In this document: positions 13,912 through 55,187 of the stretch, piece by piece
Numbering within the stretch: position 1 is the first letter of the stretch
How the letters are laid out: every line of letters starts with the position of its first letter
NCBI GenBank assembly: GCA_946902875.1
Contig: OX336343.1
Span: 20,507,596 to 20,571,595, forward strand
Direction of reading: 5' to 3'
Source of the DNA: Nematopogon swammerdamellus
Lineage: Eukaryota > Arthropoda > Insecta > Lepidoptera > Adelidae
Length of the DNA stretch: 64,000 nucleotides
Translations under genes and position numbers: made by a program
The notes under the pieces: generated by a model
The model's input: the letters and a program-made list of their open reading frames with translations, nothing else
What the model was told of the DNA's origin: nothing
Database searches by the model: none

Positions 13912-14174
13912 TGTGCCGGACACGACACATCGGTCCGATGCGACGCGGGTACCGCACCCCGCGCCCCTCTGGCGCGGCGTGCGTCCGCGCTCGCCTCGGC
14001 CCGCCGCCCTGGCAGTCGATCACACCACGGAGTCAAGTATAGTCGCTTTGAGTCAATAATAATTTCTAAGTCGTTTTATTACACGTTTATACACAGCTAT
14101 CATAGTGTTTCATTTGGACCTTAAACACTAACACCCTACATAGGACACTCGCATATAGTAGCTAAAGTGCCACA
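13912..14174 (+). repeat. Right LTR of the gypsy element
   Basis: 263 bp, same sequence as the left LTR by eye, directly preceded by the polypurine tract and followed by CTGG. Confidence 0.92.
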
Positions 14175-21122: not shown

Positions 21123-21233
21123 AATTTAATTAATATTAAGATTGAGTTAATTTAATTTAAATTTTATTATAAAGTCCTTCTAACAGCAAATATACCGTGC
21201 ATCCTAGAACCTCGCGGTTATTCCCGGCTGGAT

Positions 21234-23546: not shown

Positions 23547-23589
23547 ACATTTAAAATGAATATAAGCTCCCCACCAATGCCGCATCTCC

Positions 23590-23836
23590 CTACGCCTGCT
23601 CCTGATGGCTCTGGAGCTGCCTCAGCTGGCGCAGCACGGTGTCGAGCAGCTTCCTCCGGTCCCGCTCCGTCTTCTTCAGCATCGAGAACACCGACGAGCG
23701 CTGCTCGGCCTCGCGTAGCTTCTCCAGCAGCGTGCAGGCGTCGCGCGGCGTCACCAGCGCGTAGCGGCCTCCCTCCACGCCCACGTCGTGCAGGTACGAC
23801 GACCAGTCCCACCCGGTCACCAGGTCCAGCAGTTGA
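23590..23836 (-). CDS. Sec15: Sec15 exon 15 (last coding exon)
   Basis: Continues R|QLLDLVTGWDWSSYLHD, then ALVTPRDACTLLEKLREAE and a basic helix, ending HQEQA-stop. Human: RQLLDLFMVWDWSTYLADYG...NP.TALTLLEKMKD. The acceptor AG at 23837-23838 falls inside a longer open frame, and the phase (one base completing CG|T) selects this position. Just 44 bp past the stop codon a truncated LINE begins, so the 3' untranslated region probably runs into it. Confidence 0.94.
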
Positions 23837-26800
23837 CTGTCGAAGATACGTTTCATGTTCAGGGTTGACTATGATTTAAAAGTGCAAGAGTCGTCACTGC
23901 GACCTAGGAAGATCTATAGTGATCTCTCAAAAGTTTTGAGATCTCACACCCAAGTCCCATTTCCGCTAGGTATGAACCAAATAAACTGTTCGCACTGGAT
24001 CACGTCCAGGTCCAGCTGGTGCAGGCTCCTGCAGACACCCTCCTCACTCACCGCAGACTAGCAAAGTGCACCAGCAGCTCTCCCTCGCGCAGCCCGGGCA
24101 CCGGCTCCGACGCCGCGAACTGCTCGCTCTGGATCACGTCCAGGTCCAGCTGGTGCAGGCTCCTGCAGACACCCTCCTAACTCACCGCAGACTAGCAAAG
24201 TGCACCAGCAGCTCTCCCTCGCGCAGCCCGGGCACCGGCTCCGACGCCGCAAACTGCTCGCTCTGGATCACGTCCAGGTCCAGCTGGTGCAGGCTCCTGC
24301 AGACACCCTCCTCACTCACCGCAGACTAGCAAAGTGCACCAGCAGCTCTCCCTCGCGCAGCCCGGGCACCGGCTCCGACGCCGCAAACTGCTGGCTCTGG
24401 ATCACGTCCAGGTCCAGCTGGTGCAGGCTCCTGCAGACACCCTCCTCAATCACCGCAGACTAGCAAAGTGCACCAGCAGCTCTCCCTCGCGCAGCCCGGG
24501 CACCGGCTCCGACGCCGCGAACTGCTCGCTCTGGATCACGTCCAGGTCCAGCTGGTGCAGGCTCCTGCAGACACCCTCCTCACTCACCGCAGACTAGCAA
24601 AGTGCACCAGCAGCTCTCCCTCGCGCAGCCCGGGCACCGGCTCCGACGCCGCGAACTGCTCGCTCTGGATCACGTCCAGGTCCAGCTGGTGCAGGCTCCT
24701 GCAGACACCCTCCTAACTCACCGCAGACTAGCAAAGTACACCAGCAGCTCTCACTCGCGCAGCCCGGGCACCGGCTCCGACGCCGCAAACTGCTCGCTCT
24801 GGATCACGTCCAGGTTCAGCTGGTGCAGGCTCCTGCAGACACCCTCCTCACTCACCGCAGACTAGCAAAGTGCACCAGCAGCTCTCCCTCGCGCAGCCCG
24901 GGCACCGGCTCCGACGCCGCAAACTGCTCGCTCTGGATCACGTCCAGGTCCAGCTGGTGCAGGCTCCTGCAGACACCCTCCTCACTCACCGCAGACTAGC
25001 AAAGTGCACCAGCAGCTCTCCCTCGCGCAGCCCAGGCACCGGCTCCGACGCCGTAAACTGCTCGCTCTGGATCACGTCCAGGTCCAGCTGGTGCAGGCTC
25101 CTGCAGACACCCTCCTCACTCACCGCAGACTAGCAAAGTGCACCAGCAGCTCTCCCTCGCGCAGTCCGGGCACCGGCTCCGACGCCGCAAACTGCTCGCA
25201 CTGGATCACGGCCAGGTCCAGCTGGTGCAGGCTCCTGCAGACACCCTCCTCACTCACCGCAGACTAGCAAAGTGCACCAGCAGCTCTCCCTCGCGCAGCC
25301 CGGGCACCGGCTCCGACGCCGCAAACTGCTCGCACTGGATCACGTCCAGGTCCAGCTGGTGCAGGCTCCTGCAGACACCCTCTTCACTCACCGCAGACTA
25401 GCAAAGTGCACCAGCAGCTCTCCGTCGCGCAGCCCGGGCACCGGCTCCGACGCCGCAAACTGCTCGCACTGGATCACGTCCAGGTCCAGCTGGTGCAGGC
25501 TCCTGCAGACACCCTCCTCACTCACCGCAGACTAGCAAAGTGCACCAGCAGCTCTCCCTCGCGCAGCCCGGGCACCGGCTCCGACGCCGCAAACTGCTCG
25601 CACTGGATCACGTCCAGGTCCAGCTGGTGCAGCGCTCCCGCCGACACCTGCTTCACTCCGCCGCCGTCTAGTAGCAGCGCTCGCAGCCGCTGAGCGATGC
25701 GCGCTGTCGATGCGCGCGCCGCCGCTGCCCTGTTCGATCATTATGAGTTTTATATAAACCTTATCATGCAAGTAAAGTATTCCGGATTCTGCAAACCGGA
25801 TCCAGTGGTTACTATCACCAAGCAATAGATGTTCCGCAATGGCCTTTGAACTTTGTAGACGCCTGGGGCGCCCCAGGCGTCTACAAAGTTCCATGTAGCT
25901 GTGGGAAGAGCTACATCGGCCAAACGAAGAGGAGCGTCCATGAGCGAATGTGCGAACACATATGAGCAGTCAAGAATGGTGACCTGCAGAAATCGGCCAT
26001 TGCGGAACATCTATTGCTTGGTGATAGTAACCACTGGATCCGGTTTGATGAATAGTCGGTACTAGCGGTAGAACGACACTACACTCCACGCGTAGTCAGG
26101 GAAGCCATCGAAATCACCAGGCACAGAAATTTCAACAGGGACGACAGTATGAATTTATCACCTTCTTGGCTGCCCGTGCTGTCACAGCACACGTCTTCAA
26201 GATCTTCCGCCAAGCCAGTGTCTGAAGACAAAGTGAGTGTTGTGTGCAGCCGGGACTTCGTACGATGTATGGATCGCGATCTGACACCGCTGCCGAATAT
26301 TGTGCAACCTACCCACAGCTATAATCTTCGAAAAAGAGCAGTTTGACGTCTGGTACAACGGACACCAGACGTCGGCTCTAGGAACTCCCGCAGTCCCTGA
26401 AGAAGCCCGTGACGTAGCGGGCGAAACGTCGACTTATGTAAGTCTTTAAACCTACTACTGTTAATCCGGAAACTTAAAAATGAATATAATTAATAACAGA
26501 GTAAACTTAAAAACATTAGGAACTAAATTTTATTTAGGCTATCCTGTGTCATGTATAGTTAAATGAGCTTGTACTAAGTTTCATCAAATTCGGATGATCG
26601 GTTTAAGAGTTATAGAGGAACATACATACATACATACAGAAAAAAATCGTCAATTTAGTTTTAGTATCATACATAGAGTTATACAGGGTGTTGTAACGGC
26701 CAGTACATTAATTTCGCCAGCGCAATCCTCATGTTTTTCCGAGATAAAAAAGTAAATAAAGTTTTTCTCTAAAGTGTCTAGTTTTAGAGATATAAATTTT

Positions 26801-29800
26801 TGAAATTGATGTTTTCATCAAGTGTAATTTGACGCTAGCGGGTGGAGGGTGCTGGCGCGGGAACGGTCGGGATCGAAAAACTCACACCGCGTCGCCGCCG
26901 CGCATCTCCTCGCTCCGGGCACTCGTCCCTGCTCGCTCACTCACCGCTCGCCTTTCATTCCCACGTTCGTGCGGAACATTAGGTTCATTTAGATCCTTTT
27001 ACACTAAATAAATCAATTAGTTTGTATGAAAACTGTAACTTTTTATTTAAAGGAAAAAGTTATTTGACTTTTTTGTTACTATTGATCCCAATAGTCATTT
27101 CCTAAATTTAATGTAGTAGCCTGTATACACAAACGCAATATTCATAAAACAAAGTGACCATCCCTTACAGATTTATTATTAGTAATTAATGGGAATGTGT
27201 CAATAATATATTCTGTCATACCTAGCGCGTTCCGGCAACTGTTCCAGCGAGGCCAGCACGCCGGAGAGGTAACTCAACATGTCCGTGACGAACGTCGAGG
27301 CGTGTCCGCTCGGCTCCACTGCAAATGCAAAATGTATTAAACCTTTTTATTGTGCCTATTCACTAACTGGAGAAACACATTACTTACACTGACGTGTCGG
27401 CAGGACAGCATATGTCCCGGCGACGCGGGCGACCTTCGGGATTGCAATACACGCTCTTTTAATATGGAGACAAGGCTCAATTATACTTCTAAAAAAAGGT
27501 GAAGTTATGCTCTTCTCGAAATGATTCACTTTGTCGCTAAGCTAGAGCACAGAGCAGAGATCTATTCAGTTGTTTTCGAGCAGTGGCGACGAACGTACAT
27601 GTTCGCGCGCGAATACGCCGCGACCCCGCCCCGATTATAAATTATTTTTGGTGTTTTTAGTCATTACTTTGTTGTCTTTGTGTATAAATTCGAAAGAATA
27701 CAACATTTATGAAGTGAATGTGTTATTATGGGAAGTTTTTATCCATTGGCGAGTGTGTAAAATGGAAACAAAACATAACCTCACTATCACTGGCGGCCGG
27801 TCCTAAAGTGCGCCCGTGCGCCGCACTACCATACCACGAGAAGTCTTCACTTCACTCAAAATAAATAATATCTTAGAATACAACATACCTACATTAAAAC
27901 CATAAAGATCGTACTCCAAATAAATACGAATGTGAATTCGACCTTATTTTATAGATCATAAGGCACGTTTTTGCGAGTAAACCCGCGCCCCGTGCGGAAT
28001 CGAATAACGCACGCGGGTCTCCCATCTGAATGTATGGGGATCGGCAAAACACCGCTGGCGCGTGAGACAAAAGATACTTCATAGAAACAGTATGGGCCGA
28101 AATGGAGTTCTGCGTGCGGCGCACGAGCACCAAACAAGGACGCTATATCGTGAACAGCCGCGCGTGCGACACGTCGCGAGCGATTCCTTTTCCTTTTGCA
28201 CGAGTCCGTCTACCTAGAGTCAGCGCGCTGTCATGTGGATATGATGTCACGTATCCGTTAGCGCGCGAATATTTAAAATGGGATATGGTTAGGTTTTGTG
28301 CTTTCTGTCCCGTGATACTGTGAATTAAATGGTGCCGATATTTGCCTAAGAGTTGGTTAAAGGTAAGGCTTTATGAACAGGCGATCCCGGGTTCAATTCC
28401 TACTTTTCAAATGTTTTTTTATTATACATTTTTTAAGTATTTTTGGGACATTGCTATTGTTTTCTTTTTGAAAGCTGCAGCAGTGTTGTGGTCTATGGGT
28501 ACTATATGGTGTTCATAAAGGTACTATATGAGTTAAAAAACTTGTTTGGATTTATTTTCTTGGTTTTTGCAACTCATTGAGTGTCTTGAGAATATTCATA
28601 CTAGGTACGTACATAGTACAACGCGGCGTTTAAAAAATTCAGAAGTCGCGATCTTAAAATAACATTGGGAATGTGTTGGGAAATTTGGTATTTAAGGAGG
28701 TAGGTACTTAGCGCACTACCGGTCACTGAAGTCACCAGCCGCCACTGCTCACTATATTTGGTAAGTGCAATGTTCAACTCACAATTTGGAATCAAAACAC
28801 AAGTCAGAGCACTAAAAGTATAGATCCATTTGTAGAACATTTTGTAAGGATTACAACCATGCTAAATTTGCAATAGGTGTTCATATATTTTTTTTTCCTA
28901 AAAAATGTTTTTTTCTCCTTGCGCAATAGGGAGTCAGTGCGCGCGCAACGCCGACATTCGAAGGGTTAATACTCACCGAGGAGCCAGTCGTAGTTCTCCA
29001 GATCGAGGAACTCGTCGACATTTTTCTCCAGTTTTTCGCAGATTTGTTGCTCGGCGTCGTCGCGCGCAGTCTGGAACATGCTGCCCGGGGGCTGTTGGAC
29101 AGCAATCAAAACAAATAAAATCAAAACAAAATCACTCAATCAAACAGAACCAGTAAAGAAGAAAAATCGCAAAGCAACCAGTTCATCTCACAACATTTAA
29201 TCTGTCAGGTGTAATGTTCCAAACAGGACCTATCTATAATAATAATACATCTACGAGGCAAATTACAAAAATATAAAAACAAAGCTTTCCTTAAATTCAT
29301 CAACTATAACTTTTAGAAGGAGAGCACCATCCTTACCTATAATAAAATCCAACATCTGCTTTCTGTCTGAGTGTCTGAGTGTATGTCTGTCTGTCCGCTT
29401 ATAACTCTCGAACCACTGAACCGATTTTAATAAAACAAAATTCTACGGATAGCTTGATTCTTCCCATCAACTATAGGCTACTTACTATCACGCTAAATGG
29501 CTTATGAGGTTAGCAGTGAAGTGAAATATGAGAGCGGGCGGAGCCGCGGGCACAGATTGTCTCTTATATGCAGCGGTATATTGAATTGAATATATTGAAG
29601 ATAATTATCTTCTAGTAGTTGAAGCAAGGTCCAAAAGATAGCCTCCATACTTTTCTCGAATTATAGGCGCATTCAACTCAGTACGGCTTCAGTTTGGTTA
29701 CATTGATCTGACGTGTGAACGAACGGTATGGTGGGTGCTGCCCGGTTTGAGGACTGAGAAATCTTGAAGAGTCTTGCGAAGGTAGAACACTCTTTCGTTT

Positions 29801-32074
29801 TTCGGCTTTCCGCCGAAGTTACCTAATCTTGAGATGAAACTACCTAACCGTAGAAGTTTTAACACTTGGGTAAAGTACGCAAATCAATCTTCTGTTGCGG
29901 AAACGCTGAGAAGACTGTTTTTAGGTCAATTGTTACTTTTATTGGCCCCCAAGATCACCAGATTTGACAGCTCCTGACTTTTTTCTGTGGGACGTGTCTA
30001 TGCCAATATGCTGATGAATCTTGAACGCTTATGTATAGCGTAAATAATATTCGAAGACCACTGGACCACCGGTATGCGAAAAGGACACGAAAAATAATAT
30101 GAAAAGAGCTTGCCTTTGTCATGCAGCAAGAGGTGCCGTACGACACCTGAAAGCCTTTGTCGTGCCTGCTGTTCCTTCACTCCTACTCCTTCGCCCGGAG
30201 CGAACCAATAGAAGCCGATATTCGTTTGGTCGGTTAAGTAACTTGTTAGCTCAGTGGTAAGCGTGTAGGGTTTGCATTTTTTGGACCATGGGTTCGAATC
30301 CCACATAATCTTTTTGTTTTTTTTTCTTTTTTAAGCAATGTTAGGGTGTTTAAATTTTTTTAGGGTGTTTAGTTTTTTTTATAACCACCTAAAAGCTTTA
30401 TTTTCGGAAATACAAACGTAACAATAACGACATGCACCGCCTCAAAATTAGGTTAGGGTTAATATATATTTTATATTAACTTCTATATATTAACCCTGGG
30501 TATTTTTTTTTTAAACCACCAAAACATAATTTATTTATCACTTCATAAGGAGTGGTTCCGCAGGATCGCAGGAACAGCAGGCACGACAATGGCTTTCAGG
30601 TGGCGCACCGCAAGAGGTGGACATTTGACAGATGTTATTTTCCATGATTTATGATTTAAAGCGTGAGAGTTAGGGCCCCCTGAGCCCTGTTGTCACTGGG
30701 ACCTAGGAAGGTGATCTATCAAAAGTTTAGAGCTCAACGCCAAATCCGATTTCTGGTATGAACCGAGTTATATTCTTGGGGTTTGGGTATTGTATTGTAC
30801 GGCTTACTGTATTTGGCATGGGTTAAAAATATTACCCCCAACAAGAAGGCTTCTACTTTTCCATACGTAATTAATTACAAAGCCTGAATAAAATAGTCAC
30901 GGAAAAATATGTGGTATATTTTTCGTTTGTTATAACAATATGTAAATTTAAATTTGTATCACTCCTAGTAGGCCGAGTGGCCTACTAGGTGGAGTTATAA
31001 GGTCTTATAATTACCTGAGTGGACACCAACTCCGCACCGGTGATATTACTGATGAACTGATACAAATATGTCGTCGCACCCTCTAGGTATTGAGTGTCAA
31101 TGATTATCTGAAATAAATAAGGAAAATTATTTCCAAAATCAACCGAATAGGTGCATTTCGGATAAGACCTGATGTTTCTAACCAAAATTGCAGTACTATC
31201 ATAGAGAAAATAGATAGAGAGGAGTTTTTGTTAGCTCTAATTTCTAGTAAAACATGTGTCGCCAGTGAGGGGAGTAGCGGGGGGTAATTTTTAAAATTTT
31301 TTTTTTTTATGGAAACTGACACGGTTGGCTACATCACCTACAACATCCGTGATGTCAGCCCATAACACCGGGTGAACTAGGTGCTATGTCAGTGCTTCCC
31401 TTCATTTCATGTCGGCTGCACTGAACTGGACGGAAAACTGTTTCGTTCGGTGTGGTGGTACCAACCCGGTCGGGATAACCCTACCACCTAGTAAGGTAAG
31501 AAGGGAAGGGACCTACAATTTAACGTGGAATCCGAACCGCGTTCAGCCTCCCAACGGTCGAGCGGTCACCCATCCAAGTACTGACTGCGGTCGACCGACC
31601 GCACCACTGAGCTATCGAGGCTAACAATTAGGTTAGGTATATAATCAGCCAGTGCAGTAATAAGGTGAAAGCACATTACGGTTCACTATTAATTATATTT
31701 TGGTCATGTAATTTTTTTTTTTTTTTTAGGTTAGGTTAGGTTAGGTTAGATTAGGTTAGTTAGGGTAGGTTAGGTTTAAACTCTGGCTCGGTTCGGTGTG
31801 TCCTACCTGCACAACTTGCATGAGCGCGAGCGACGGCCGCCGGAACAGCGCGGACAGGCAGCCGGTGAAGGAGCGCGTGAGCAGCAGCGAGGCCGAGTGG
31901 CGGGCGGCGGCCGCGCGCCGCGCCCCGCCCAGCCCCAGGCCCGCAGAGTACTTGAGGCACGCGTAGATGAACTCCTTCACTTGCGTGTACACCGCCGGCA
32001 CCATCGACGAGAACGGGAACCTGCTCAGAACGTTTTAGAACGGGACCCTATTACTAAGCCTACGCCGTCTGTCT

Positions 32075-32105
<31 letters not shown>

Positions 32106-35100
32106 CGTCCGTCCGTCTGTCCAAGGGCCGTATCTCTTGAACCGTAATGGTTAGCCCGTTGAAATTATCACAGAATATGTGTTATTATGGCCGAAATAAC
32201 TACAAATAATAAAAATAAGAAAAAGTAAAAAATTCACCGGGGTTCCCATAGAAGAAACCAAAAAGTGTATGCGCGCGCGCCATCTACCAAATAGATTATG
32301 AAGCATATTAACTAATCATGACATTTCATATGAAGCATTTCATAACACGCCATCTAGATGGCGTGAGTGGCGCTAGCCGTGACATGGCGATACGGAACCC
32401 TCGGTGCGCGAGTTCTACTCGCACTTGGCAGGTTTTTTATAGTTAGCGCGACATGCGGCGCCGGCAGGGTTGCCAGATGGTTCAGTTGAAAAAACCGGAC
32501 ATTATTCATCAAAGGGCCATTGGTTTTTCAGTACCAATGTTTTTTAAGAAATTAAAGGGGTCCCCCCCTTTGATTTCAAGTACCTACAAATGTTTTTCAT
32601 GACCTTTACTTTTGAAAATGAGAGATATGAGTTATAAATAAAACCGTTGAATTATCTAAAACCTCAAAAAGCTTTATTTGTAATAGTGTTAGATTTTACA
32701 ATAAACTGTCTTCTAACATAAAACAATTAGAAGATAATAATTTTAAACGAAGAATTAAACAAATGTTAATTGAAAAGAGTTATTACACTATTAAGGATGC
32801 TTTAGCTGACCATAATTTTATCTGAGAATCTGACTACTGTTTTTCCCACTAAATAACTTGACAATTGGATACACTTTGTATCTTTAGATTTTTAACATGA
32901 CTTATTTATTACATTTCTTTGTAATAAACTTTTACTAATATTTGTTGAATTGACTTGATATATTTAAGTATCAAATTGACGATGGCACTATACACCAGAT
33001 ATAGGTAATGTAAATAGGCAGAGTGGTCAGATACTTCAGTATTCGTGTTTATGCTGTAAATATGAATGCTCTTGTGAGCGGTAGTATGGTTTAATTATTT
33101 ATAAGTTACTATAATATAATACTTATAAGGTACTAACAAAACATTGTGACTTGCGAAGTTTGTTTGTCAGTTCTTCTTCGCATTGAATTTAGAACTGGCG
33201 GAATTTTCGACAAGTCCAAGCGTAGGTTACCTACCTGTGGATGAAATTATACAATAAACAATAAACAATTGATCAAACTGATTGCAAAATTTAAAAACAC
33301 AGTACAATTAGTATTAAAATGTTCTGAAAAAAAGTAAATATTTGCGTCATATGAAAAAAAAAACCGACGTCTTGATGTCCGGTTTTTCAATATTTTGTTG
33401 GAGACCGGAGAAAAAATGGACTGTCCAGTTCAAAACCAGACATCTGGCAAACCTGGGTGCTGGGTAACTGACGTCATTACTCATTATGTTGATCACTTCT
33501 GTCTTGTAACGTGCTTCTTTCTTATTAATCAATTACTTATCTGAGAGTTGCTGTAACTATTAAAATAAGGTGAATTCATCAAGATAATATCCTGTTTTCA
33601 GACAGATACCAAAAAACAAGAAAAAGTTGATCCATCCATCTAAGGATGTATATTGGTCATATTATGTGTATTTTATGTATTTACAAGCTGTGCCCGCGGC
33701 TCCGCCCGCTCTCATATTTCACTTCACTGCTAACCTCATAAGCTATTTAGCGTGATAGTAAGTAGCCTATAGTTGATGGGAAGAATCAAGCTATCCGTAG
33801 ATTTTTTTTTATTAAAATCGGTTCAGTGGTTCTCGAGTTATAAGCGGACAGACAGACACTCAGACAGACAGAAAGCAGACGTTGGATTTTATTATAGGTA
33901 AGGATGTTTCGAACTATTGTCCTTTCTTCTTCACTACTGCATTGTTCACCTCCACACGCTTCTCCAAATTGCTTTTTTTATTTATTAAAACTATTTTATT
34001 AAATTAATGAAATACAATAAAATTATTCTTTATTGTACACCATTTTATAAAAGAGTCACAAAAGGCGAGTTTAATTCCTTTGCAGAATTCTTTTGAAATT
34101 AACCTTATAAATATTAATTATAGCTGTGCCCGCGGCTCCGCCCGCTCTCATATTTCACTTCACTGCTAACCTCATAAGCTATTTAGCGTGATAGTAAGTA
34201 GCCTATAGTTGATGGGAAGAATCAAGCTATCCGTAGATTTTTTTTTTATTAAAATCGGTTCAGTGGTTCTCGAGTTATAAGCGGACAGACAGACATACAC
34301 TCAGACACTCAGACAGAAAGCAGACGTTGGATTTTATTATAGGTAAGGATAACTACACCAACCAACTATGAACTTGATTTAGATACATCAGACCGGGCTG
34401 CCTGTCTAAAATAAAATAAATAAATAAATAAAAAACTTTTGGGATGTGACACACTGTGGGCAGACAATGCATGCAGTACTAAAGAATGGACAGTAGTATG
34501 AAATCGAAATACCTACATAACAATATATGTTACAAGCTGTGCCCGCGGCTCCGCCCGCTCTCATATTTCACTTCACTGCTAACCTCATAAGCTATTTAGC
34601 GTGATAGTAAGTAGCCTATAGTTGATGGGAAGAATCAAGCTATCCGTAGAATTTTGTTTTATTAAAATCGGTTCAGTGGTTCTCGAGTTATAAGCGGACA
34701 GACAGACACTCAGATAGACAGAAAGCAGACGTTGGATTTTATTATAGGTAAGGATATTAATGCTGCTTACTTCCTAGGGAAAGGTTGAGTCTCCAGGTCT
34801 TCACCATCGTAGGGGAAATTATCCATCACTCCCTCGTACTGTTCTTGATTCTCCACCTGTTGGGACAGATTCACAATTCAATTGTTGTCTTTGTCGTGGT
34901 AGTTGATGGTTTTTTTTTTGTGGATAGCTCGACATTTTTCTTCGTTTCACCTACAAGTAGGTGTCTAACGATGCCCACGATGTGAGCTGCTTTTCGGAAT
35001 CAGAACCGAATTGATAAAAGCGGTAGGCTCCGATTCCATTTCAACAAAGTTCTCAGAATTGGATAGGTTTTCAGCACCATAAACTGTTAAGAACTGCTTT

Positions 35101-38100
35101 TGTGCTGTCAAATTCTTTGATTTTTTTTTATGTAAACCAGCATGGGTGGCTGTGCCGAGAGACCAATGGTGCAGTCGACAGAGCCAAAATCACCTCTCCT
35201 CGCGAAAACACGCTCAGTTAGGTGCCATGCCAGCAGATTTGCGGACTGTTGCTAGGCTGTCTAGCCCGTTAATACGACGCTTGAAGACACTTTCAACAAC
35301 TATCAACAATAACTGATGATAAAAACATTAGAAACGATGGCTGACAAGCCCTTGGGTATAATAAAAAATTTATAATATGTCTGTTTCGTATATGGTCCTC
35401 TACAGAGGAAATAGAAGGTAGGTGCCATACCGGAGACTTCCCTTTGGATTGATGGCTATACTGAACTAGAGGAGAACACAAACGAGCTTGCTATGCGGCC
35501 ATCTTACATTCAGTACGGAGCTACCAACCCAGTCGGCTACAATTTGAGCCTACCACCTAGTAAGGGGCAAGGGAAGAGACCTACAGTTTTACACCTGTTC
35601 CGAACGGTGAAGCAGCAGGTGTAGGTATGCACTTAAATTCTTTCGTCAGAAAAAAACTCATTGGTACACATCGACCTGAATCGAACCTCGTACTTCAGCA
35701 CGAGAAGACGACGCCCAGACCACTCGACCACCCGCCGCGGTGTAATGTGAAGCAGAGAACAGCCCCTGTACCGGCATTACTCACTCGCCGATGTGAGTAT
35801 GAGAAACACTCTCACTCAACCCATCAGAAGGTGTTCAGTGAGGCATCCAGCCCGGCTATTGGTTGAAATATACGAGTAGTTAGCGAGTGAGTTAACGCCG
35901 GTAGACCCGCAGGTGAAAGAGTCAAAATGTTTTCCAGATCAGCCTCCCAATTTTCCAAGCGGCATACCTCTAGAGGCAAGAACGGCTCGTTCTCGAGGAT
36001 GTCTCTGAAGACGACGACCCAGCGCTGCATCAGCACCTCGGTGTAGTGCTCCGCCATCTCCTGCAGCAGGCTCGGCAGCGGCCCAGCCGGCAGCCCGTAG
36101 CATCTCACGTTCAAATACAACATTTACAGCTCTTTGTCTCATGCAATACAGTATGGGTAGTCGAGTCGGAGGGGTCAGAGCCCATGCCCGATATCACCTC
36201 CCAGAAGTTTCCATGCTGGACACTATCCTCTGGATAGCTGGCTATACTGGACTAGAGGAGAACACAGCCGAGCATCTTTCGTCCAGTACGGTGGTACCAA
36301 CTAGGGGCAAGGTTCTGTACAAACAGGGGTAAAATTGATTTTAGAAGAAATTGAGATTAATGTTTTTTTTTTTTTTTTTATGGAACCTGACACGATTGGC
36401 TACATCACCTACAACATCCGTGATGTCAGCCCATAACACAGGGTGAACTAGGTGCCATGTCAGTGCTTCCCTTCATTTCATGTCGGCTACACTAAACTGG
36501 ACGGAAAACACGAACTATTTACATAGCCGTTTCGACCGACGTTTCGTTCAGTGCGGTGGTACCAACCCGGCCGGGATAAACCCTACCACCCAGTAAGGTA
36601 AGAAGGGAAGGGACCTACAGTTTAACGTGGAATCCGAACCACGATCAGCCTCCAACGGTCGAGCGGTCACCCATCCAAACACTGACCGCGCTCAGCGTTG
36701 CTTAATAACAGTTGACTAACCAACCGCGCCACTGAGCTACCGAGGCTGACGAATTTTCTTATCCCTTAGTCGACTTTTACGACATGCGACGGGGAGAGAT
36801 GCAGTGGGGCTATTCTTTTTAAGTACCGACCCCACACGGTTGTGGTTATTCTTTAATGTTCTCATTAATGATAATAATAAAAATGCTGAGGTGATTTCCA
36901 GCCAGTTGCGGCTAGCATGCCGCTTCCAGTGAATGAAAGGAGGGAAAAGTTCAAACCTCCACAGGTTCATTGCAAGATAGTATATGATAAACAAATGGAT
37001 AAAAGAATGAAATCTAGGTTGTGCAATCATGATACAAGTTTGGTACGGAACATCGACGGTGTCCCTCTTCGGTCTAGTCATGACAATATTTTAGCTATCT
37101 CCTCATAAAACTGGTTTTTATACGAACTCATTTTCTGTTCACGCAGCTCGACTGTGGAATTCACTACCACACTTCATCCGACAATGCAAATCGCTTTCCT
37201 TTTTAAAAAACACCTAAAACTCTATTACGTCCGTAAATGTGAAGTAAAAACCTAAAAAACAAAAAACTACTTTTGTTTCATACCTGGATGGACAAGTATG
37301 TAAGTATGTATATTTATGTGTACATAATATTCTATACATTTTGTAATTTATATGTATTTAACACATGTATGGTTTGTATTTAACTAGCATGTACTCATAT
37401 GTATTGATTTTATCTTCAATTCTCACCTCAATTCTTTTGCTACTACCTACTTACATTCCACTATATTATCGAATCTCAAACATTCAAAGGTTGATTGTAA
37501 GAAATCTCTGTATAGGTGTATTCCGCCTTTGCGTCTTATGCAAATTTTTTAATGCACTTACTGTTTTATGTTTACTGGAGCAATAAAGCAGTTTCTATCT
37601 ATCTAGTTATCGACAAAAGCAACAGAAAAGAGAATCGCTCACTTCAGCGTATTATTGAAGAGCACTATCTGATGCTTGATCGCGAGCATCAGTGAAGGGT
37701 CCGTGATGAGCGATGTATTAGTCCTCATCGTCGATGCGACCTTGCCCACCGCCATGCCCCACGTGTCGAGCAGCCAGTCGCGCGTGACCAGCCCCGCCCC
37801 CGAGCTGAGCAGGTGCTCCTCGAGGATGAAGAAGCCGAGGACGGCGTTGAGGTAGCTGCGGACGCTCTGGATCGAGTCGTGCAGGTTTGTCGCTGAGGGG
37901 ATGAGCACGAGACGGGCTTGCTGCTTGCGTTGAGCTCTGCAATTCAGTTAATGTAAAGCTTGGTGTTGCAGCCTATTGATACGGCGTTTGATGAGACCCA
38001 GGTTAAAGGATTCGTGAAACACACTCGCCGGAAGACAGTTCCACATGTTTGTTCAGTCGACGACAGTTCACGACAGTTCCACTGTTTCCATACTTCATAG

Positions 38101-41100
38101 AAACAGTATGGGCCGAAATGGAGTTCTGCGTGCGGCGCACGAGCGCCAAACAAGGATGCTATATAGTGAATAGCCGCGCGTGCGACACGTCGCGAGATTC
38201 GTTTTGCACGAGTCCGTCTACCTAGAGTCAGCGCGCTGTCATGTGATGTCACATACCCGTTAGCGCGCGAATATTTAAAATGGGATATGGTTAGGTTTTG
38301 TGCATTCTGTCACGTGATACTGTGAATTAAGTGGTGCCGATATTTGCCTAAGAGTTGGTAAAAGGTTAGGCTTTACAATCAGGTGATCCCGGGTTCAATT
38401 CCTACTTTTCAAATGCTTTTATTTTTATATATTTTTTTAAGTATTTTTGGGACATTACTACTGTTTTCTTTTTGAAAGCTGCAGTAGTGTTGTGGTCTAT
38501 GGGTGTGTTCATAAAGGTACTAAAAATGAGTTAAAAAACTTGTTTGGATTTTTTTTCTTGTTTTTTGCAACTCATTGACTGTCTTGAGAATATTCATACA
38601 AAGTACGTAGGTACATAATAAAACGCAGGCGTTTAAAAAATTCGGAAGTCGCGATCTTAAAATAACATTGGGAATGTGTTGGGAAATTTGGTATTTAAGT
38701 AGGTAGGTACAGGTCTGTTAACCAAAGCTGGCGCGTGCACAGTACTCACACCAATGCAATTGCCCGCGTGCGAGTGAGACAGATCGGGTTTTCGTTATGC
38801 GTATGCAGTGCGACGTCTCACTCGGACGCGGGCAATTGCATTGGTGTGAGTACTGTGTACGTGCCAGCTTTAGTTAAAACCGACCTGTACTTAGCGCACT
38901 ACCGGTCACTGAAGTCACCAGCCGCCAATGACCCCACCAGGTGAAGAATAAACAAATATTTTGTTTGCCACGAACATGCTAAAAACTAGAACATGCTAGA
39001 ACATATGCTAAAAAGAATTGCACTTTTGCTAAAACCTCTTTAGTCAATCAAAGAAAGATTGGCTGCCAAAGAAGTATTTAGACAGGAACATATAAATGAG
39101 TTTTCTTGCCTGTAGTACTGTATGAAGTCATTCTTGGCGCCGAGTACGCTGTGGATATGGAGACACCGATGCAGAGGGCTGAAGTCCACCAGCTCGTGGG
39201 GACACTGAGCCGATCCTTCGTCCTTGGCCTGCGCTCCTAGCGATGTCTTGTCTGCATAACATACATCATTATTAGTCCCAACAAATCCTAAAATTGGGCC
39301 AACGGACATAGGGAAGCATATGGAATGGTCTATAGCAGGGGTTCTCAAACTTTTTTTTTCAGGTACCACTAAAATCAATATATTTCGCGGCGCACCACCT
39401 TTACCTACAAGAAGCTAATAATAATCTATATCTACATTCTTAACTCCTTGGACTTTCCAAAACCTAAAATTTATTTCTTATCGATTTTAGTTATATTCAT
39501 ATTACTATGAGCATTTGACAGTTGTATTTTATATCACTAAGACAATCAAAATTCAAATTATATTTATGTTCATCAACAAAACATTCAAAATTAGGATTAT
39601 GGCACTTTTTAATGCCGCTTATAAAATTTTGTACAGCATAATTTTTAATTTTTTCGTGTACACCAAGAAGCATTCCGCGTACCACTGGTGGTACGCGTAC
39701 CATAGATTGAGAATCGCTGGTCTGTAGTCTATTTTTTGGAAGACGGAGTAAATTGACGTTTGACTGACATTAGAGTGTTGCACGCTTTGCACCACTAGTG
39801 ATTGTAGTCGATGAAAATAGTATCGACTTTTACACGACACGACACACCTTCACACCTATTATGCTGTGGAGCTATATGCCTGTGGAGCTGCCTTAAAGTT
39901 AAAATTTTTCTAGCTAGATTTAGCTTAATTTGTTGTTAATTAAATCCACAATAAGGTAAATATTAGAGTTTACAGCATTTCATTAGTTAATCAATCGATA
40001 AAAGTATCGATAGCAACTACATGCCTATTTAAAATTTGCCAGAAACTGGCAACACTCCAAACGTCACTTTCCTCAGTCTTCCAAAAAAACAGACTATAGG
40101 TTTCTAGTAGCTAGTTGAAGGTAAAATAAGCTTTGTATTTTGCAAAATTGCCAAAAAGAGGGCCTGAGTGCCCATATGTCCGGGCCTGCACATTATGTCA
40201 GATACCAACTGACCAAATAGATATTAATAGTTTGAATCCATCTTAAGTCACAAAAGATAGAAAGAAAGAAAGAATAGAAATAACATTTATTGTCATTGAA
40301 GAACCAGAAAATATACAATACTAAATATTACAATACAACATTAAATTATATACAATACTAAATCTAACATGTAATTATCTGATGACAATATGGGCCCATC
40401 TCAGCACACGCTGTAAGGTGCAGTCACAAACAAACATGTACACCGAATGGGCCTTAACGACACACCGGTCTGCAGGTTCGTATAAAAAAGGATTAAACAC
40501 CCATACACATCCTCTGTGAATGTGAAGTGCTCATTCACAGTAGAAGCCGTATTATTGGGGGTTATATTTTCAACCCATGCCAAATACAGGCACTCAACTC
40601 CAAGAATATAACTCGGTTCAAAGCGAAAATCGGACTTGGGAGTGAGCTATAAACTTTGGAGAAATTATTCACGGAGACAGCATTTTCAACTTCACTGGGT
40701 AGACTATTCCAAGATTCTACTACTCTGTTGGTGAGAAAGTGTCGTCGAGGGTTCTGCTTAAACCGATTGTGATAGAGCTTTTTCGAGTGCCCTCTCAGGT
40801 TTGTAGTGTTAGCAAGGGTAAACATATCTTGTGGCCTGGGAACATTGTAATAGGCATTCAGAATTTTAAATGTTTCAATGAGATCTACCCGTTCTCTTCG
40901 TTCTTGCAGAGTGCTCTAGTCAAGGTTATTTAGCCGGGTTTCGTAGCTGTTCTTTTTCAGAGCAGTTAGCATTTTTGTAGCTCTACCTTGTACTCGTTCC
41001 AGCAGGTCAATATCCTTCGTATAGTAGGGACTCCAGATCTGGTATGCATACTCTAGCATAGCTCGGAAGTAGGTCTTACTTAATCTTAATCAAAGTGGAG

Positions 41101-44100
41101 GCAATAGGCGACCTACAGCGCTGTTCACATGGCCTACTCACCCTTCTTGCTCTTCACGATGGCGGCGAGACTCCTGCCGAGCATCTCCTGCGTCTGCAGC
41201 TGCGCCATCGCGCCCACCTGCGGGCTGAGCGTGCGGATGTTCTCGAGGAAGTCGCGCAGGTCCGCCATGGACGCGTCGCGGATCGCCTGGCGCAGCCGCG
41301 GCACGTCCGCCGAGACGTGAGCGCAGAACTTGTACGGGCCGACGCGCGGCAGGAGCACGTGCTCGAGTTGTTCTAGCGTCTTGAGCGCGGGGTAGTACCT
41401 GTGCGGTTGGAAAGAACATCAAAACAATCAAAATCAAATCAAAACAAAAATTTTTAAAAATCTGTTAAGGCATAAATAAGACTCAAACCGTGCTACCTGA
41501 GCACTGATGATTGAAACACGAACCGTATGCAGATGTAATAGGTGCGAGATTCGTTCTACTCGTGCGGTTGCTGATACGTCGCGCCGACGATGAACGTTTG
41601 CGCGAAAATCACACTATATATTAAATTTCACGTGTTGGAAAGATGGAAAACAATATTTTTTTCGCTACGATTGTAGGAAAAAATATTATCTATATTTCTA
41701 TGAGGGTCTTGCATTGAAACCATTGATGTTTCTCAAGATAATTTAACTTGAAAGTACAATTTGCGTACTTTTCGTTATTGTATTGAATTGTTTATTGATC
41801 ATTCATATGGCAGTTAGACTGCGCTCGAACTTGTCACAATTTGTTCTATCCGGTTCGATTACACCCACGAAGAAGAACCGACAAGAAACTTCGCAGGGTA
41901 TTTTTTTAAACATATTTTTACAAGTATTTAGTGACTAGCCACATAGTAACACCACCCATAGTCTATCTAAAACACAGCTTGAGAGCAAGATTAACACTTT
42001 TGCTGAGAGTTATGTATGACTACAAATATTATTGTTTGGAGATTTATTTAACACCTTTCCAAAGTAGTAAAATCAATACATACATATACACATATATACA
42101 TACATACAAAGATCAATACATAACACATATTTTTTACAGATTGTTTATCTTTACGAATAGCTCAATAATTTCGTTTAAAGTTGGTCTTTTGAGTCTTATT
42201 TCCGCCTTAAGTGCGAGTTTTACTCGCGCATGGAGGTTTCCGTATCTATCCGCTATCAATAATATCTGCCTATCTTTGGCTTTCAGTAATGCAATGTATA
42301 AAATCCTGTGTCGCCATGTATTATTCAGTAGCGTGACTAATCGATTTTTCGCACGGTTGTTGTATTGGAGCCCCCCTTAATTTTTAACGTTTTATTTTTT
42401 TTATTATTTGTTGTTATATCCGTCATAGTAACACATATTCTGTGAAAATTTCAACGGGCTACCTATTACGGTTCAAGAGATACAGCCCTCTGACAGACGG
42501 ACGGACAGACAGACAGCGGAGGCTTAGTAATGAGCTTCCGAACGGGATACGGAAACCTAAAAAGTGTGTATTAGTCAGGAACATTTTTTTTTTATGGAAA
42601 CTGACATGGTTGGCTACATCACCTAAAACATCCGTGATGTCAGCCCATAACACCGGGTGAACTAGGCGCCACGTCAGTGCTACCCTTCATTTCATGTCGG
42701 CTACACTGAACTGGACGGAAAACACGAACTATTTACATAGCCCTTTCGACTGACGTTTCGCTCAGTGCGGTGGTATCAACCCGGCCGCGATAAACCCTAC
42801 TACCTAGTAAGGTAAGGAGGGAAGGGACCTACAGTTTAACGTGGAATCCGAAACACGGTCAGCCTCCAGCGGTCGAGCGGTCACCCATCGAAGTACTGAC
42901 CGCGCTCAGGATTGCTTAACAACAGTCGACCGACCGCACCACTGAGCTACCGAGGCTGACGAATTTCCTTATCCCTTGGCAGAAATCTCCGGATCTCCTG
43001 GACACACCTCTGCCGCCTCTATCACTATCATAATGTTCTTCATACATTTATTTATTTATTTATTTTAGACAGGCAGCCTAGACTGATACGTCTAAATCCA
43101 GTTAAAATTTGTTGTTTTTCGTCATTATCTTAGATCTTTTTTTTCGTTCTTGAGCATTTTTTCGTTTTTGAGATTATGTTTTATTTGTTAGATATTTATC
43201 TAGTCTATTTTTGAATTGGTTGGTACTAAGTGCGCTTATTACTTCCTCTGGAAGTTGGTTCCAGTCATAGAGAAATAATGTTATACTAGAGGAAACACTA
43301 CTAAGAAAGATTGAACGAATCTTTGACAACAAAAACTGCGGTATGAGGAAAGGTCGAGCGGGCGGGGGAATGCAAGCAGCAAGATCTATTCTGTGACGCA
43401 TACGCCGTGAAGCAGCTGTGAAGCTAAGTAAACGCTGCACGCAGCAACAATAGTAAAATAAATTGCGAGCGTCTAACAATGTGCAGCGCTGCAATTACGT
43501 TGTGCACGAGCTAACACAGGCGGGCCATCAGTGTTGTCAATATATATTCGGTGGTGTTGGTAAGTAGGCGGAGTTTGTGGAATGAATCGGGGTATTAAGC
43601 AGCTGTGAAGCTAAATATAAACGCTGCACGCAGCACCAGTATTAAAATAAATAGCGATCGTCTAACGATGTGCAGCGCTGAATTACGTCGCGCACGGCGT
43701 TTGCGGAACGCATAGGGTTGTCAGTGCAATGACAGTGATTTTTCGTTTGATTGAAGCAAAATGTTGGTTTTTTTTTTACTTATTTATTATTTTAAATCAA
43801 CGATTGTAATTTATTTTGTTCAATATAGCAACGTCCTCATAATGAAAGATACAACAAATTCCCTCCAACAAAACATTCATATGATGAATTTTCTATTTTA
43901 GGAAAACTTAAGATTAATATAATATTAGCCATGTTCACCGTGATGAGTCTTGTAAGGTGTAACGGGGTTTCAAGTAACGAAAAAATTAATAAAATTTAAT
44001 TAATTGAAATATGAGAACATTATTAAAAAAAAGGGTCTTACAATTTTTTTTATGTTGTGCCGAGGGACCAGTGGTACATTCGCCTGAGCCAAAAATACCT

Positions 44101-47100
44101 CTACTCACAAAGCCACGCTCAGAGAGGCGCCATTTTATTGATAAGATCGATTTTCTCAAAAACAGCTATAAGTAATTGTTTTGATAATATTTTTTTATTT
44201 CGCGATTTAAAAAAAGTGGCCACTTTTTTAAATTGCGAAATTAAAACATCATGAATATTATTAAACCGGAAAAAAATATTGTCGTAAAGAAGTCTCCAAT
44301 TTTTTACTCTGTTCCTCGAAGTTTAGGTAAATAAGCCCTACCTATTACTATCACTGGTGACAACCCTGTAATAATAATTAATAAATAAAAATAAAAATAA
44401 ATTAATTAATTATGTGCATTAATAAATTAATAAAAATGTGTAAATAAACGAATACATTAATAAATTTAACTAAGATACTTACACATAAAATATAACTTAT
44501 TTTTTAGAAATGTTTAGTCGGTTTCACAAATATGTATTAGTGAAACCGACAACCCTGAAATAATCATGAATCTACAACTCTCGCTCGCACTGTAGCACAG
44601 TCCGTATTTAGTGTCTCGCTTCGCGCGAAGTTTATTGTGTAAGCGTTGAAGCACACATGAGACATGCATGACTAACATCGACGGCCGCCGGGAGTCGACT
44701 GACAGGAAGTTTGTTAGTCAACTCTCTTCGATGGGGCGAAAGTACTTGCCCTTAGTATATCCTCTATTACAACGTATAGCTCAATGGTTCCAGTCATCCA
44801 CCACTCTGTTTGTTATGAAATTTTTGTGAGTATTGCTGTTAAAGATTGTTCGACTTAGTTTCATGCTGTGGCCTCGAAGATGAACGTTTTGGTTCAATGT
44901 GAACATTTGGATCAGCTCAGGGCAATCATATTTACACGTCAGAATTTTGTACACCTCTATTAGATCGTCGACAGAATAGATCTACATGCTCGTCAGTTAC
45001 GGATACTACTACTACGCAATTTTATTTTTATGGTCCCATCGCAAAATGCGAAAAAGGGACCCTTATGGGATCGCTGTGGTGTTTGTCTGTCTTGTCTGTC
45101 GGTCGGTCACACGCAGATATCTCCGGACTTAATGAACCGATTTCGATGAAACTGATGCCAAATTACGTATAATGTTTGCCGCTAGATAGATTTATAGATA
45201 GATAACTTTGTCTAATCGTCCTGTGGAAAGTAAAGCGTACCCCAAAACGTGAAACAAAAATAATATTTGTTTTTTTTTTAAATAAATCAAGTGTTCAAAG
45301 CAATCAAAATTCTATTAATACAATTTCAAAAATATATAACCTTGCTATCAATCAATCAATACTAATAATAAATCTGTATGCGATGGTCATGGAGTAAGTT
45401 ACTTTGTTTTATGAGATACTGAGTTTGCAGACTCTATGTATGATACTAAAGCTAAATTAACGATTTTTAGAAATCTTTTCTGCATGTATGTATGTATGTT
45501 CCACCATAACTCTTAAACCGATTATCTGAATTCGAAGAAACTTCGTACAAGCACATTTACTTATACGAGACACAGTTATAAATAAAATATATTTTAATTT
45601 TCATTATGTTGCAAGCAATCGGTGGTGCTGTACCGCTGACGACTGGCAGGACTGGACAAAATTGGAGAGGTGTATGTCTAGCAGTGAACGCATAAACACT
45701 GGCTGACTGAATGACAGTGACAGAAAATTGTGAACGAAGCAAGGTACCTTTTGGCAGCGACCTGCGCTTTCAGCTTGGAGTAAGTGGTGAGGAGCGGCAG
45801 ACACAGCTCCATCTTCTCCACCGTGGCGGCCATGTTCAGCTCCACCCGTCGAGCCTGCACCAGCTCGTCCGCGCGCGCGCATAGAACTAACCACAGACGA
45901 GCAGAATGTTTAGAGAACGTATTCGCAAACTGTTTCTATCTGATTCTGACGGCGACGAGTAATATAAATTTCCCTTAATTACGTTCTTGTAACTTTTATT
46001 CAGATGGTTCTATATTATAAAATATATGTTTACATATGTATATGTAGTTTATGTATAAATATAATATGTACGTACCTTATATTATTTATTTTATGTATGT
46101 ATCTATGTATCTATTGTTTGTGTCCATTTATTTAATAGTCTTATTTTTCACGCTTCTCTCTTGCACTGCATTGTCCGCCCTATCAGCTTCTCCACATCCC
46201 AAAGGTTAGTTTGTAAAGAATGCTACTCTGCATTAAACTCGCCTGTTGTTTTCCTTTTTATGGTGTACAATAAAGTATATTTTGATTTGATTTGATGTTT
46301 CAGGCTGGCTTACATTATTTTGTTCTTTTGATTTCTTTTTAAGATTTTTTTTACATACATACAGGCATTACCGCTTTTACCGCGGACAGTCCTCTTTTTT
46401 GAAGCCTTGACCGCGGAAAAGTTTTAGACTTCCGCGGACAAAACAAAGGGGGGATAGATTTTTCGTTAAAGCTTTACCCGAAAAATCACAGGTGAAAATT
46501 TGGTGAAAATTGTCCTTTTTTTTTATCTGGACCATCTGGCAACCCTGCATACATACAGCACCCTGTATCCCCGAAAATCGGGATAAGTAGAGTAATCGGT
46601 GTTGTGCTGCAAGAGCTCTGGTAAATTACAGCACAACAGCAACCATCACGTTTTGCAAAGTATTCGGACATGACCATCGAGGCAGCAAATAAGGCACGAA
46701 CACCCACCTGCTGCATAACTCGGTTGAACGACCGTGCCAAGGTGAGAGACGGCTATCCTGTCGCCATTTAGCATATGGCAGCTTCCCCTTATCTATTATC
46801 CCTAATTATTATTTTTTGCGAGTGCTTTAGCTAACAAATTTTGTCTATGTCAGGTCAGCACCATTGTGACTGTAAAATAAGGTACTGCCTTTTACATATT
46901 GTGTAGAAGATATTTGTTACGGACGACGGCCAGCCCGAGCAGCAGCGACGGGCAGACGACACGACGCGCACGTCGTTCCACCGAGCGGTAGCGTAGGGCC
47001 TAGGCGAGCGGCCGACGTAGTTTAGTTTAGGTTTTTTAAGTTTTAGTTAAGTAAAATTAAATATAAAATGTAAATATAAATAAGTATAAATAAGATAAAT

Positions 47101-50100
47101 AAAGGTCCATATATAAAACTGTAGAATAAGTTAGTTAAGATATGTAAGAATTTAGTTAAGATATGTAAGTAGGATTAAGATATATAAGTTAGATAGGAAT
47201 ATATGGGCCTAGTTAAGATAGATAAGTTAGACTAAGATAGATAGTCGTAGTATAAGATATGTAAGATAGAATAAGTTTACAAAAATAAATATGTTGCTGC
47301 GTACCGGGTTTCATTCGGGACGGACGGGAGGTGTGCACTCGCCAAAATAATCAGTGTAATGAACCGGGCCGAGGCGTGCGGCGCGGGCGCAGAGCGCTGT
47401 GATTGGTCGGCGCGGAGACTGACGGAGAGATATCGCAGCCTCCGCACCTCTCACGGCGCACGGCGCGCCCGCGCGTATACAAATATAGCACGTTTCGGAC
47501 CGTTCATTCAGTATTCGCCGCAACACCACGAAGAGAAGACGCCTGGAGCCTGAGCTCGGCGCACCGGTCGACCGAGGAGTGAACAGTCGGAAGAGAGACT
47601 TCAGAGCGGAACGACTGCCTCGGCCGATCGGACGGTTCTTCTCGCGGCGAGTGCTCCACCCACGCACGTCTCGGGTGCTACTCAGTGCGTGGCTTCGTAA
47701 AGCCACCCACGCATTTCTTTTAACTAAACGCTACGCTACGTTTACCTCCCGGCGCCCCGCGGCGTTACGGTTGAGGATTACCTCCCGACGCCGCGTCGCG
47801 CGTCGGTCGAGCGATCGCACCACCACCTCCCGGCGCCCCGTGGCGTTACGGTCGAGGATTACCTCCCTGCGCCACGTGGCGTGTCGGTCGAGGAAGAACA
47901 GCACCTCCCTACGCCCTAGCGTAACGGTCGAGGACGAAAGTGAGCACACCCGGTCGACCCATCGCACCACCCGTGAACGACCGCCGCGAGTGATTTCTCC
48001 GCGCCGCACGCCCGTCTGCGTCGGCCGCGAGAGAGAGAGACCGTCGCCGCGTCGCCGAGTGAGCGAGACGGTCGCAGCACCGCTCGAAGAAGTGAAGCAC
48101 ACCTACGGTCGACCCATCGCACCACCCGCGAACGACCACCGCGAGTGACGCTGCCGAGCCGCACGCCCGTCTGCGTCGGTCGAGCAGGAGCGAGACGGTC
48201 ACCGAGTCGTGCGAAAGAGAAGAAAGAAGAACACGGTCTCCGCGCCCGCTGTAACCGCTCTGCAGTGACGGGCAAAGCTTCACCAACCACCTACAGTCCA
48301 CTGCCCTGAGAAGTCGATCCGGAACATTGGTCCATTCGCAAGCCGGATTGAAGATGCCCGTCACGCGGAGCCAGAGCAACGGGCGAGGGCGCACTACGCC
48401 AGTGCCGGTACCGACGTCGGAGCAGCGAGCGCTGCCCCCGAGCGCGGCCGCGACAGAACCGCAGCTGCAACCGGGCGACACCCCGACGGCGGAGCCAACA
48501 ACAAGTGCGCCGATGACAGAGACAGAATTAAGAACGTGGTCGTCACACGACACGACGGCCACGCCGATCGCGACGGACTCAACCGTTCGCGAGCGCGCGC
48601 GCGCAGCCAGCGACGCGCGCGCACCGGCCCGCGCGCACACTCACAGCGCCGCGCGCGCGCCGAGCCGCAGCTCTCACGCAACCGCACTAGATATAGTAGC
48701 GACCGCGCGCAGCGACAAGGACGGGCGAAGCAACCACTCTGCCCGCTCGTCTAAGTCAATGCGTCGCCGTGCAATCGAAAGAGAGCTGCTGCGCGCCAAG
48801 GCAGAGGAGGCGAGACTCGCACGGGAAATAATCGAAGCAGAGCTCCGCGAGTGCGACGAGGAGGACTCGTCGGACGAAGACGAGAAGGAGGACACAGCAC
48901 GCAGTGAGTTGGTGGCATCGTGGGTGGAGACGCAAGCCGATCTGCATCGGCGGGAGATCTCCGCTCCCGCACCGCGCACGGAGCTCGCCGCCGCGAGCAC
49001 CGACGCGCACGCAGACCCGGCCGCCCCCCACCACGCGCCTCATACCGCCGCCCCGGCCGCCGCACCCCACCACGCGGCCCCCACCACTGCTGCCGTCTCC
49101 GCTTCCCTCCACGCGCCCCACGCCGCAGCTACCGACGCCGCGCCCCTCCGCGCGCCGCCCGCCGCTGCCGCCGCCGCCCCCCTCTACGCTTCCCCCGCCG
49201 CAGCCGACGAAGCCACGCCCCTCCGCGCGGCGCCGACCGCCACACACTTATGGGAGCAGCCGGCCGCGCGCCTCTGCGCGCCGCCTGCCGCCGCCGCGGC
49301 TACCGAGCTTCACTATCCGCCTGCCGCCGCCGCTGCATCAAGTTCGCACGCTCCGCTCGCCTCCGCTTCGATAACAGTGGAGATGCTCGCCGCAGCATTG
49401 GGGCGAGCGGAACACAGCCGACCGCACGCCGCACCAAAGTTTCTGCAAGACTTGCCTACTTTCGACGGGTCCGCGGGTGAGTGGCTCCTGTTAGCGACTG
49501 CATTTCGCGACACAGCGAGCTACTTCTCGCCGGGCGAGAACGCGGCCCGATTGAGAAAATGCCTGAGAGGCAAGGCGAAAGAGGCCGTCTTCAATTTAAT
49601 GTTGGCGGCACCGGACCCCGGCCGCGTCATGGCAGCATTGGAGCAGCGTTTCGGGCGACCGGACTGCCTCGTCTTGGGTGAGCTGGACAGATTAAGGAGC
49701 CTCCCCAGGACGAAGGATTCACCGAGCGAAATGAACGAATTCGCAAGTAAAGTGAATAATATTGTGGCTACGATCGAGGCCCTCGGCCGACCGATGTACC
49801 TGCACAATCCTGAGACGGTGCGCATCATCGTCGATAAGCTGACGCCGCTGCGTCAGACACGGTGGTGCGACTATGAGGACCGGGAGAGAGACGACCGCCC
49901 CGCGCTGCAAAGGATGGCCAGCTTCCTGAACGAGGAGGCTCGCAAGTGCGGGGCATACGCCCGCCCGGACACCGCCGCAGCCGCCGATGTGTCGACGAGT
50001 GAGACCCGCCGCATCAACAGTAACCGCCGTCCCGCGGAGAAAGCCTACGCCGCCAGTGAAGAAGAAGCCAGTGACGACGAAATGCCGAAATGCCCGACGT

Positions 50101-55104: not shown

Positions 55105-55187
55105 CTGGTTTACAACAGTTTGCATAGGTACAAATTTTCATTAGCTTTATTTATCATAAAAATTACTACTTACACACGCATGCATAC

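Follow-up and report, generated by a model that had tools for sequence, protein, structure and literature searches.

Intron 13 of the intact Sec15 gene of the moth Nematopogon swammerdamellus carries an exon-derived tandem array, probably a minisatellite removed by splicing

Several described tandem arrays have units that carry coding sequence, and some carry splice signals as well. In the human UBC array (PMC10809524), tandem coding units have splice signals at each boundary, and the frame is preserved whether a whole unit is included or omitted; the units are used in the protein, they recur every 228 nt, which is a multiple of 3, and the sequence AGGT is donor and acceptor at once. The minisatellites that modify human paralogues have units over 60 bp that include gene sequence, and coding sequence contains half of the variable repeats (PMC2812944). 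The kringle IV type 2 VNTR of LPA has a unit of about 5.6 kb that carries two exons with their splice sites and kilobase introns and encodes protein (PMC11201333). Local exon duplication is also known to copy or create splice signals, and the known system has a new functional intron, AGGT and one copy.

Here we describe an array in the Sec15 gene of the moth Nematopogon swammerdamellus, contained in a window of 64,000 nucleotides (assembly GCA_946902875.1, contig OX336343.1; all coordinates below are positions in this window). Like the UBC array, it consists of tandem units derived from coding sequence with splice signals at each boundary, and whole units could be in or out without frame loss. 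However, its unit is 134 nt long, of which only a 111-nt segment is a multiple of 3, and its boundaries lack AGGT: the donor (CG/GT, in full CG/GTGAGT) and the acceptor (AG/GA, in full CTGCAG/GAGC) are separate and have 23 nt between them. Any use of the units in protein is putative. As in the minisatellites of human paralogues, its unit exceeds 60 bp and takes in gene sequence, but it is intronic by the default gene model. With the LPA repeat it shares a unit carrying exon sequence and splice sites, whereas its spacers are 23 nt. It resembles local exon duplication in the copying of splice signals, yet it has many copies and no boundary AGGT, and any new functional intron in it would be putative. 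Among the papers listed by the literature searches, several of which matched more papers than these, we noticed no report of a like array in Sec15 or in a moth gene.

The Sec15 gene is intact on the minus strand. Its exons were located by tblastn with lepidopteran (moth) Sec15 proteins, and the resulting model, built on sequence and homology, was checked by splice boundaries and the intact reading frame. The 14 coding exons run from 55125 to 23590 and join to 765 aa; the sole stop is the final codon, and the frame needs no array unit.

23590..55125, minus strand: whole Sec15 coding region, 14 exons, 765 aa (tblastn, joined exons)
25526..25729, minus strand: Sec15 coding exon 13 (204 nt), from which the repeat copies the last 107 nt (tblastn, splice boundaries, frame, 107-nt comparison)
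23590..23836, minus strand: Sec15 coding exon 14, the last, with the stop codon (Pfam Sec15_C, tblastn, frame)

Taken alone, the Pfam match to Sec15_C in exon 14 (E 7.5e-05, 22.6 bits) falls short of the curated cut-off of 28.3. A stretch of exon 13 together with the first residues of exon 14 matches PDB 2a2f, the solved structure of the C-terminal domain of Sec15, at E 1.1e-15, and upstream Sec15 exons match it at 2e-34 in one of three frames read through, with no match of this kind in the other two frames. The homologue search with the joined exons scored 7998 candidates and gave 1869 matches, of which the best 120 were used. The closest among these 120 are lepidopteran, led by Plutella xylostella (76% identity across 54% of the joined exons) and Eumeta japonica (75% identity across 65%), and no Sec15 protein of the species itself is among them. 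A C-terminal fragment or transcript from the species was likewise not found in a search of 847 candidates with 8 matches at E <= 1e-10, the top match of the C-terminal fragment being Papilio machaon (83% identity over 81% of the query). Within the gene, intron 5 apparently has a GC donor (CAG/GCAAGA, 39108-39109), and intron 9 carries, directly past exon 9, about ten copies of TTAGG, the arthropod telomere repeat, at 31726-31776.

One of the homologues, P0001, a predicted Plutella xylostella Sec15 of 892 aa, repeats the ends of other exons. It contains four copies of a 27-residue piece from the exon that ends in ...PIE, the first copy beginning HYTEV and the others HCTEV, and an exon of roughly 48 residues is present twice. 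Two further Plutella proteins of 763 aa (P0028 and P0029) contain no repeated 10-mer, and P0001 is the only one with such a repeat among the best 120 of the 1869 matches. The repeats of P0001 may be a product of annotation or assembly, or exons wrongly predicted from an array of this kind.

The array occupies the start of intron 13, which spans 25525-23837 (1689 nt). Tandem Repeats Finder reports it at 23983-25648 with a period of 134, 12.4 copies, 97% matches and a score of 3155, which is far beyond chance.

23983..25525, minus strand: tandem array in intron 13, 11 full 134-bp units and one partial (Tandem Repeats Finder, unit parsing)
24722..24832, minus strand: unit segment with an in-frame stop, G28 to TGA (unit parsing)

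Parsed on the minus strand, the full units span 25525-24052 and the partial unit 24051-23983. Each unit comprises a 23-nt GT...AG spacer, with the consensus GTGAGTGAGGAGGGTGTCTGCAG, and a 111-nt segment, 107 nt of which reproduce the 3' end of exon 13. Over these 107 nt, unit 2 shows no difference from exon 13 and the other ten units show 1 to 4 differences. The 11 full units have a mean pairwise identity of 97.6% and vary at 14 of 134 columns, several variants being confined to one unit. The segment is 111 nt long and keeps the phase of exon 13 in 11/11 units; the donor is GTGAGT, identical to the authentic one, in 10/11 and GTGATT in the remaining one, and the AG is kept in 11/11. The preliminary description, which had reported eleven full in-phase units each with an AG, an open 111-nt segment and a GT, was thus right about anatomy and phase, but one segment has a TGA and 10/11 are open. 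It had also called the parent exon 14 and the following one exon 15; they are coding exons 13 and 14. Head-to-tail units of 134 bp with 97.6% identity have the length (tens to hundreds of bp) and high identity of a minisatellite or VNTR, located, according to the predicted Sec15 gene model, within an intron of an otherwise intact gene. A blastn search of the window with all 14 exons (E <= 1e-3) revealed extra copies of exon 13 only, and a search for the array elsewhere, by means of its long plus-strand reading frame, returned none at E <= 0.001 among 217 candidates.

The length of the unit is foreshadowed in the sequence around the exon 13 donor.

25634..25658, minus strand: exon-interior copy of a 25-bp imperfect direct repeat (20/25 identity, unique best ungapped spacer match)
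25499..25523, minus strand: intron-start copy of the same repeat, comprising most of the first spacer plus GAGC (alignment, ungapped scan)

The two copies straddle the donor and are 20/25 identical, and from their spacing of 135 bp one would predict the 134-bp unit with an error of a single base. Over its last 21 nt the spacer agrees with the exon 13 interior at 25658 at 16/21 positions in exact register (fixed-register permutation p = 3e-5, binomial p = 1.5e-4). Outside the array, only the exon interior exceeded 14 matches of 21 in an ungapped scan of both strands (124,858 positions), and shuffling the composition of the stretch upstream of the junction put its similarity to the spacer region at 0.0005. 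When GAGC was added to the spacer, no local alignment in the window scored higher than that with the exon interior (30, against 25 for the next region; 6232 overlapping stretches). In gapped local alignment of the 23-nt spacer alone the exon interior scored 22, tied with one region and below another at 24. The exon interior is therefore the unique best match of the spacer only when aligned ungapped or with GAGC added, and, because the gapped 23-nt alignment is not unique, the claim of resemblance rests on the ungapped in-register result. Judging from these letters, slippage probably started at the 25-bp imperfect direct repeat, which has one copy on each side of the donor.

We then propose a model for the origin of the array. 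The imperfect repeats in exon 13 and the start of the intron would have allowed slippage or unequal exchange, by which the 3'-terminal 107 nt of the exon may have been duplicated as one unit together with the donor and the adjoining bases of the intron, with one base presumably lost at the junction (135 to 134). The unit would then have expanded to about 12 copies and drifted. With the authentic donor kept in front and the acceptor of exon 14 beyond the array, the array would normally be removed with the intron as one 1.69-kb piece, and splicing would shield the protein and let the array evolve free of coding constraint. Occasional mis-splicing into a unit may happen, often in frame, but would not be what maintains the array. 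We consider it likely that the array is such a recent exon-derived minisatellite in intron 13 of an intact Sec15 gene, born at the 25-bp repeat and removed with the intron, and an exon-derived minisatellite hidden by splicing is the simplest mechanism. In its favor, Sec15 is intact at 765 aa when no unit is included, retention of the intron from the first spacer gives an immediate TGA after ...FASLR (stop at codon 685), and several other minisatellites are present in the window. The in-register resemblance, the neutral pattern of change, the changed invariant residues and the stop, the weak unit acceptors and the occurrence of the segment just once in 119 of the best 120 homologues speak for it as well. 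The GTGAGT of 10/11 unit donors and the AG and phase of 11/11 units count against it. The idea that repeat expansions are less harmful when they can be spliced out has been proposed for UBC and related genes (PMC10809524). If the minisatellite reading is true, the locus would be a snapshot of the birth of a splice-shielded repeat, in which coding sequence and donor are copied together yet leave no trace in the protein. It would also call for caution in annotation, since gene predictors may make false repeated exons from such arrays.

Two other accounts concern how the array arose or whether it is real. The exon interior could have supplied the whole unit, spacer included, in a single block of 135 bp, with later gene conversion keeping only 107 nt identical, and the exact register of spacer and exon interior at 135 bp speaks for this. 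However, the spacer part differs from the exon at 5/25 positions and the 107 nt of unit 2 at none (Fisher p = 0.00017, or p = 0.0009 if one difference is allowed), so a block copy needs an additional conversion, whereas a pre-existing intron start that resembled the exon by chance is simpler; we regard the block copy as rather unlikely. Tandem arrays are easily mis-sized in assemblies, and the window has other repeat pairs that are 100% identical over the 266-300 nt compared, which would favor an assembly artefact behind the array or its length. Simple duplication of reads, however, would yield identical copies, and the units differ at 14/134 columns, which makes an artefact very improbable.

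A different possibility is that the units are in-phase cassette exons, with a donor joined to an acceptor at least two units further on, or a unit replacing exon 13, in either case changing the protein in steps of 37 residues. The reading frame would permit this. With the unit whose first base is 25234, exon 13 + unit + exon 14 gives a computed 802 residues, exon 13 + the same unit twice + exon 14 gives 839, and exon 12 + unit + exon 14, where the unit replaces exon 13, gives 734, in each case with the final stop only. It had been claimed beforehand that a unit added to, or swapped for, exon 13 keeps the frame, and these joins bear it out for the one unit computed; the other ten segments are equal in length, one of them with a stop. 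Since the units are copies of one another, their eleven matching splice sites and frames would amount to one observation. An in-phase copy from a single founding duplication is expected by chance in one of three cases, and if the units descend from one duplication, their phase would be one event at one-in-three odds and not eleven.

To compare the splice signals, we built an acceptor weight matrix from the 13 acceptors of the gene itself, scoring the real sites leave-one-out and the units with the full matrix. Real acceptors (n = 13) scored from -3.3 to 8.6 with a median of 4.3, and unit acceptors (n = 12) scored -0.9 in 8/12, 0.59 and 1.18 in one each, and 3.19 in 2/12. The upstream pyrimidine share is 0.29-0.35 for the purine-rich unit acceptors and 0.41-0.82 for the real ones, and a YTNAY branch-point match 15-60 nt upstream is found in 0/12 units and 8/13 real acceptors. 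These data suggest that the unit acceptors are weaker than most real Sec15 acceptors, though not outside their range. The argument is softened by the real acceptor at -3.3, which lies below all unit acceptors, by the two units at 3.19, within the real range, and by the five of 13 real acceptors without YTNAY, that of exon 14 included. In the one unit inspected at this level, AGs at 25191, 25252 and 25245 outscore the acceptor proposed in the preliminary description; the best-scoring, 25191 (+43), leaves 68 nt and breaks the frame, and 25252 and 25245 fall inside the spacer beside the donor. A spacer of 23 nt is below the usual length of animal introns. If it is too short to serve as one, adjacent units could not both be spliced in; introns do have a minimum length (PMC5435141).

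The units show little sign of coding constraint. Distinct changes in the segment number 11, 8 non-synonymous (the stop and the C/S difference common to many units among them) and 3 synonymous, and the neutral expectation for the non-synonymous share is 0.67-0.74 with transition weights from 4 to 1. The synonymous versus non-synonymous comparison that had been suggested has thereby been made, and its outcome fits neutrality, at the low power of only 11 events. Variable sites are as frequent in the spacer (3/23) as in the segment (11/111; Fisher p = 0.71). Position 13 is Cys in exon 13, units 1-3 and the partial unit, and Ser in units 4-11 (8/11); the helix quoted earlier with Ser is hence the drifted form, Cys being present in exon 13 and in 119/119 aligned homologues. 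D9A, E14Q and A17T occur once each. Among the aligned homologues from the best 120 of the 1869 matches, D9, Q12, C13 and E14 are invariant in 119, and A17 is Ala in 118/119 with one gap, so four changes (C13S, D9A, E14Q and A17T) strike residues for which the 119 homologues have no other amino acid. The segment is single in 119 of these best 120, and P0043 (660 aa) is the one exception, with no match to it. The pattern looks like a loss of coding constraint, although 11 events are few. Selection keeping the units open and spliceable, which had been raised on the basis of their frame and splice sites, has in its favor that GT, AG and length are kept in 11/11 units. Because of the stop in one unit, the neutral ratio, the changed invariant residues and the equally variable spacers, we rejected it as unsupported and hold it to be extremely improbable.

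The use of units as cassette exons can also be viewed in an AlphaFold2 model of Eumeta Sec15 (P0002; mean pLDDT 82.5, 32 sequences), the C-terminal part of which fits 2a2f with a TM of 0.84 by target length. By alignment, the exon 13/14 joint falls at R683/Q684, inside predicted helix 675-691, and the copied part spans most of helix 645-664, the loop and the first half of helix 675-691. According to this model, an insert of 37 residues would split the helix, which speaks against cassette exons, though it would bring its own helix, loop and half-helix, which speaks for them. The in-frame joins of the one unit, the equal length of 11/11 segments and the GTGAGT of 10/11 donors also speak for cassette exons, and the human UBC array splices stochastically, with a low-score acceptor still used (PMC10809524). 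Against this stand the stop in one unit, the changes at invariant residues, the weak acceptor with no preceding YTNAY, the best-scoring AG at 25191 with its broken frame, and the fact that the segment never occurs twice in the best 120 of 1869 homologues. Compared with tandem duplicated alternative exons, whose copies are open with splice sites, the units are open in 10/11, have 23-nt spacers and acceptors weaker than most real ones though within their range, and show no sign of the coding constraint of such exons (8 non-synonymous to 3 synonymous changes, the stop and altered invariant residues, at low power). We therefore find cassette exons quite unlikely. It is tempting to speculate that non-adjacent unit sites are used stochastically as a natural splicing ladder, adding 0, 1, 2 or more helix-loop pieces of 37 residues in helix 675-691 of the C-terminal domain, with a spread set by array length, but we would give this little credence. 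If the ladder were true, a minisatellite would generate protein-length variation in an essential exocyst subunit, and Plutella P0001, with other exon ends repeated, would be a second, independent case.

Beyond the array, the window contains other repeats and open frames. The open frame 23274-23621 overlaps the end of Sec15 and continues beyond its stop; it resembles the tail of a non-LTR retrotransposon protein, and a Pfam search with it gave no match. Four open frames of the window besides the one with the Sec15_C match had no Pfam hit at E <= 0.01. Other minisatellites lie at 20584-21124 and 51014-51776, with units of 68 and 162 bp. Between Sec15 exons 2 and 3, the 300-nt stretches 46915-47214 and 52441-52740 are 100% identical and 5526 bp apart, accompanied by further matching pieces at the same distance, and could be the ends of a young retroelement. 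Direct repeats that are 100% identical are also found at 8553-8818 and 13909-14174, 5356 bp apart, and at 57416-57715 and 60770-61069, 3354 bp apart; these pairs are perhaps LTRs.
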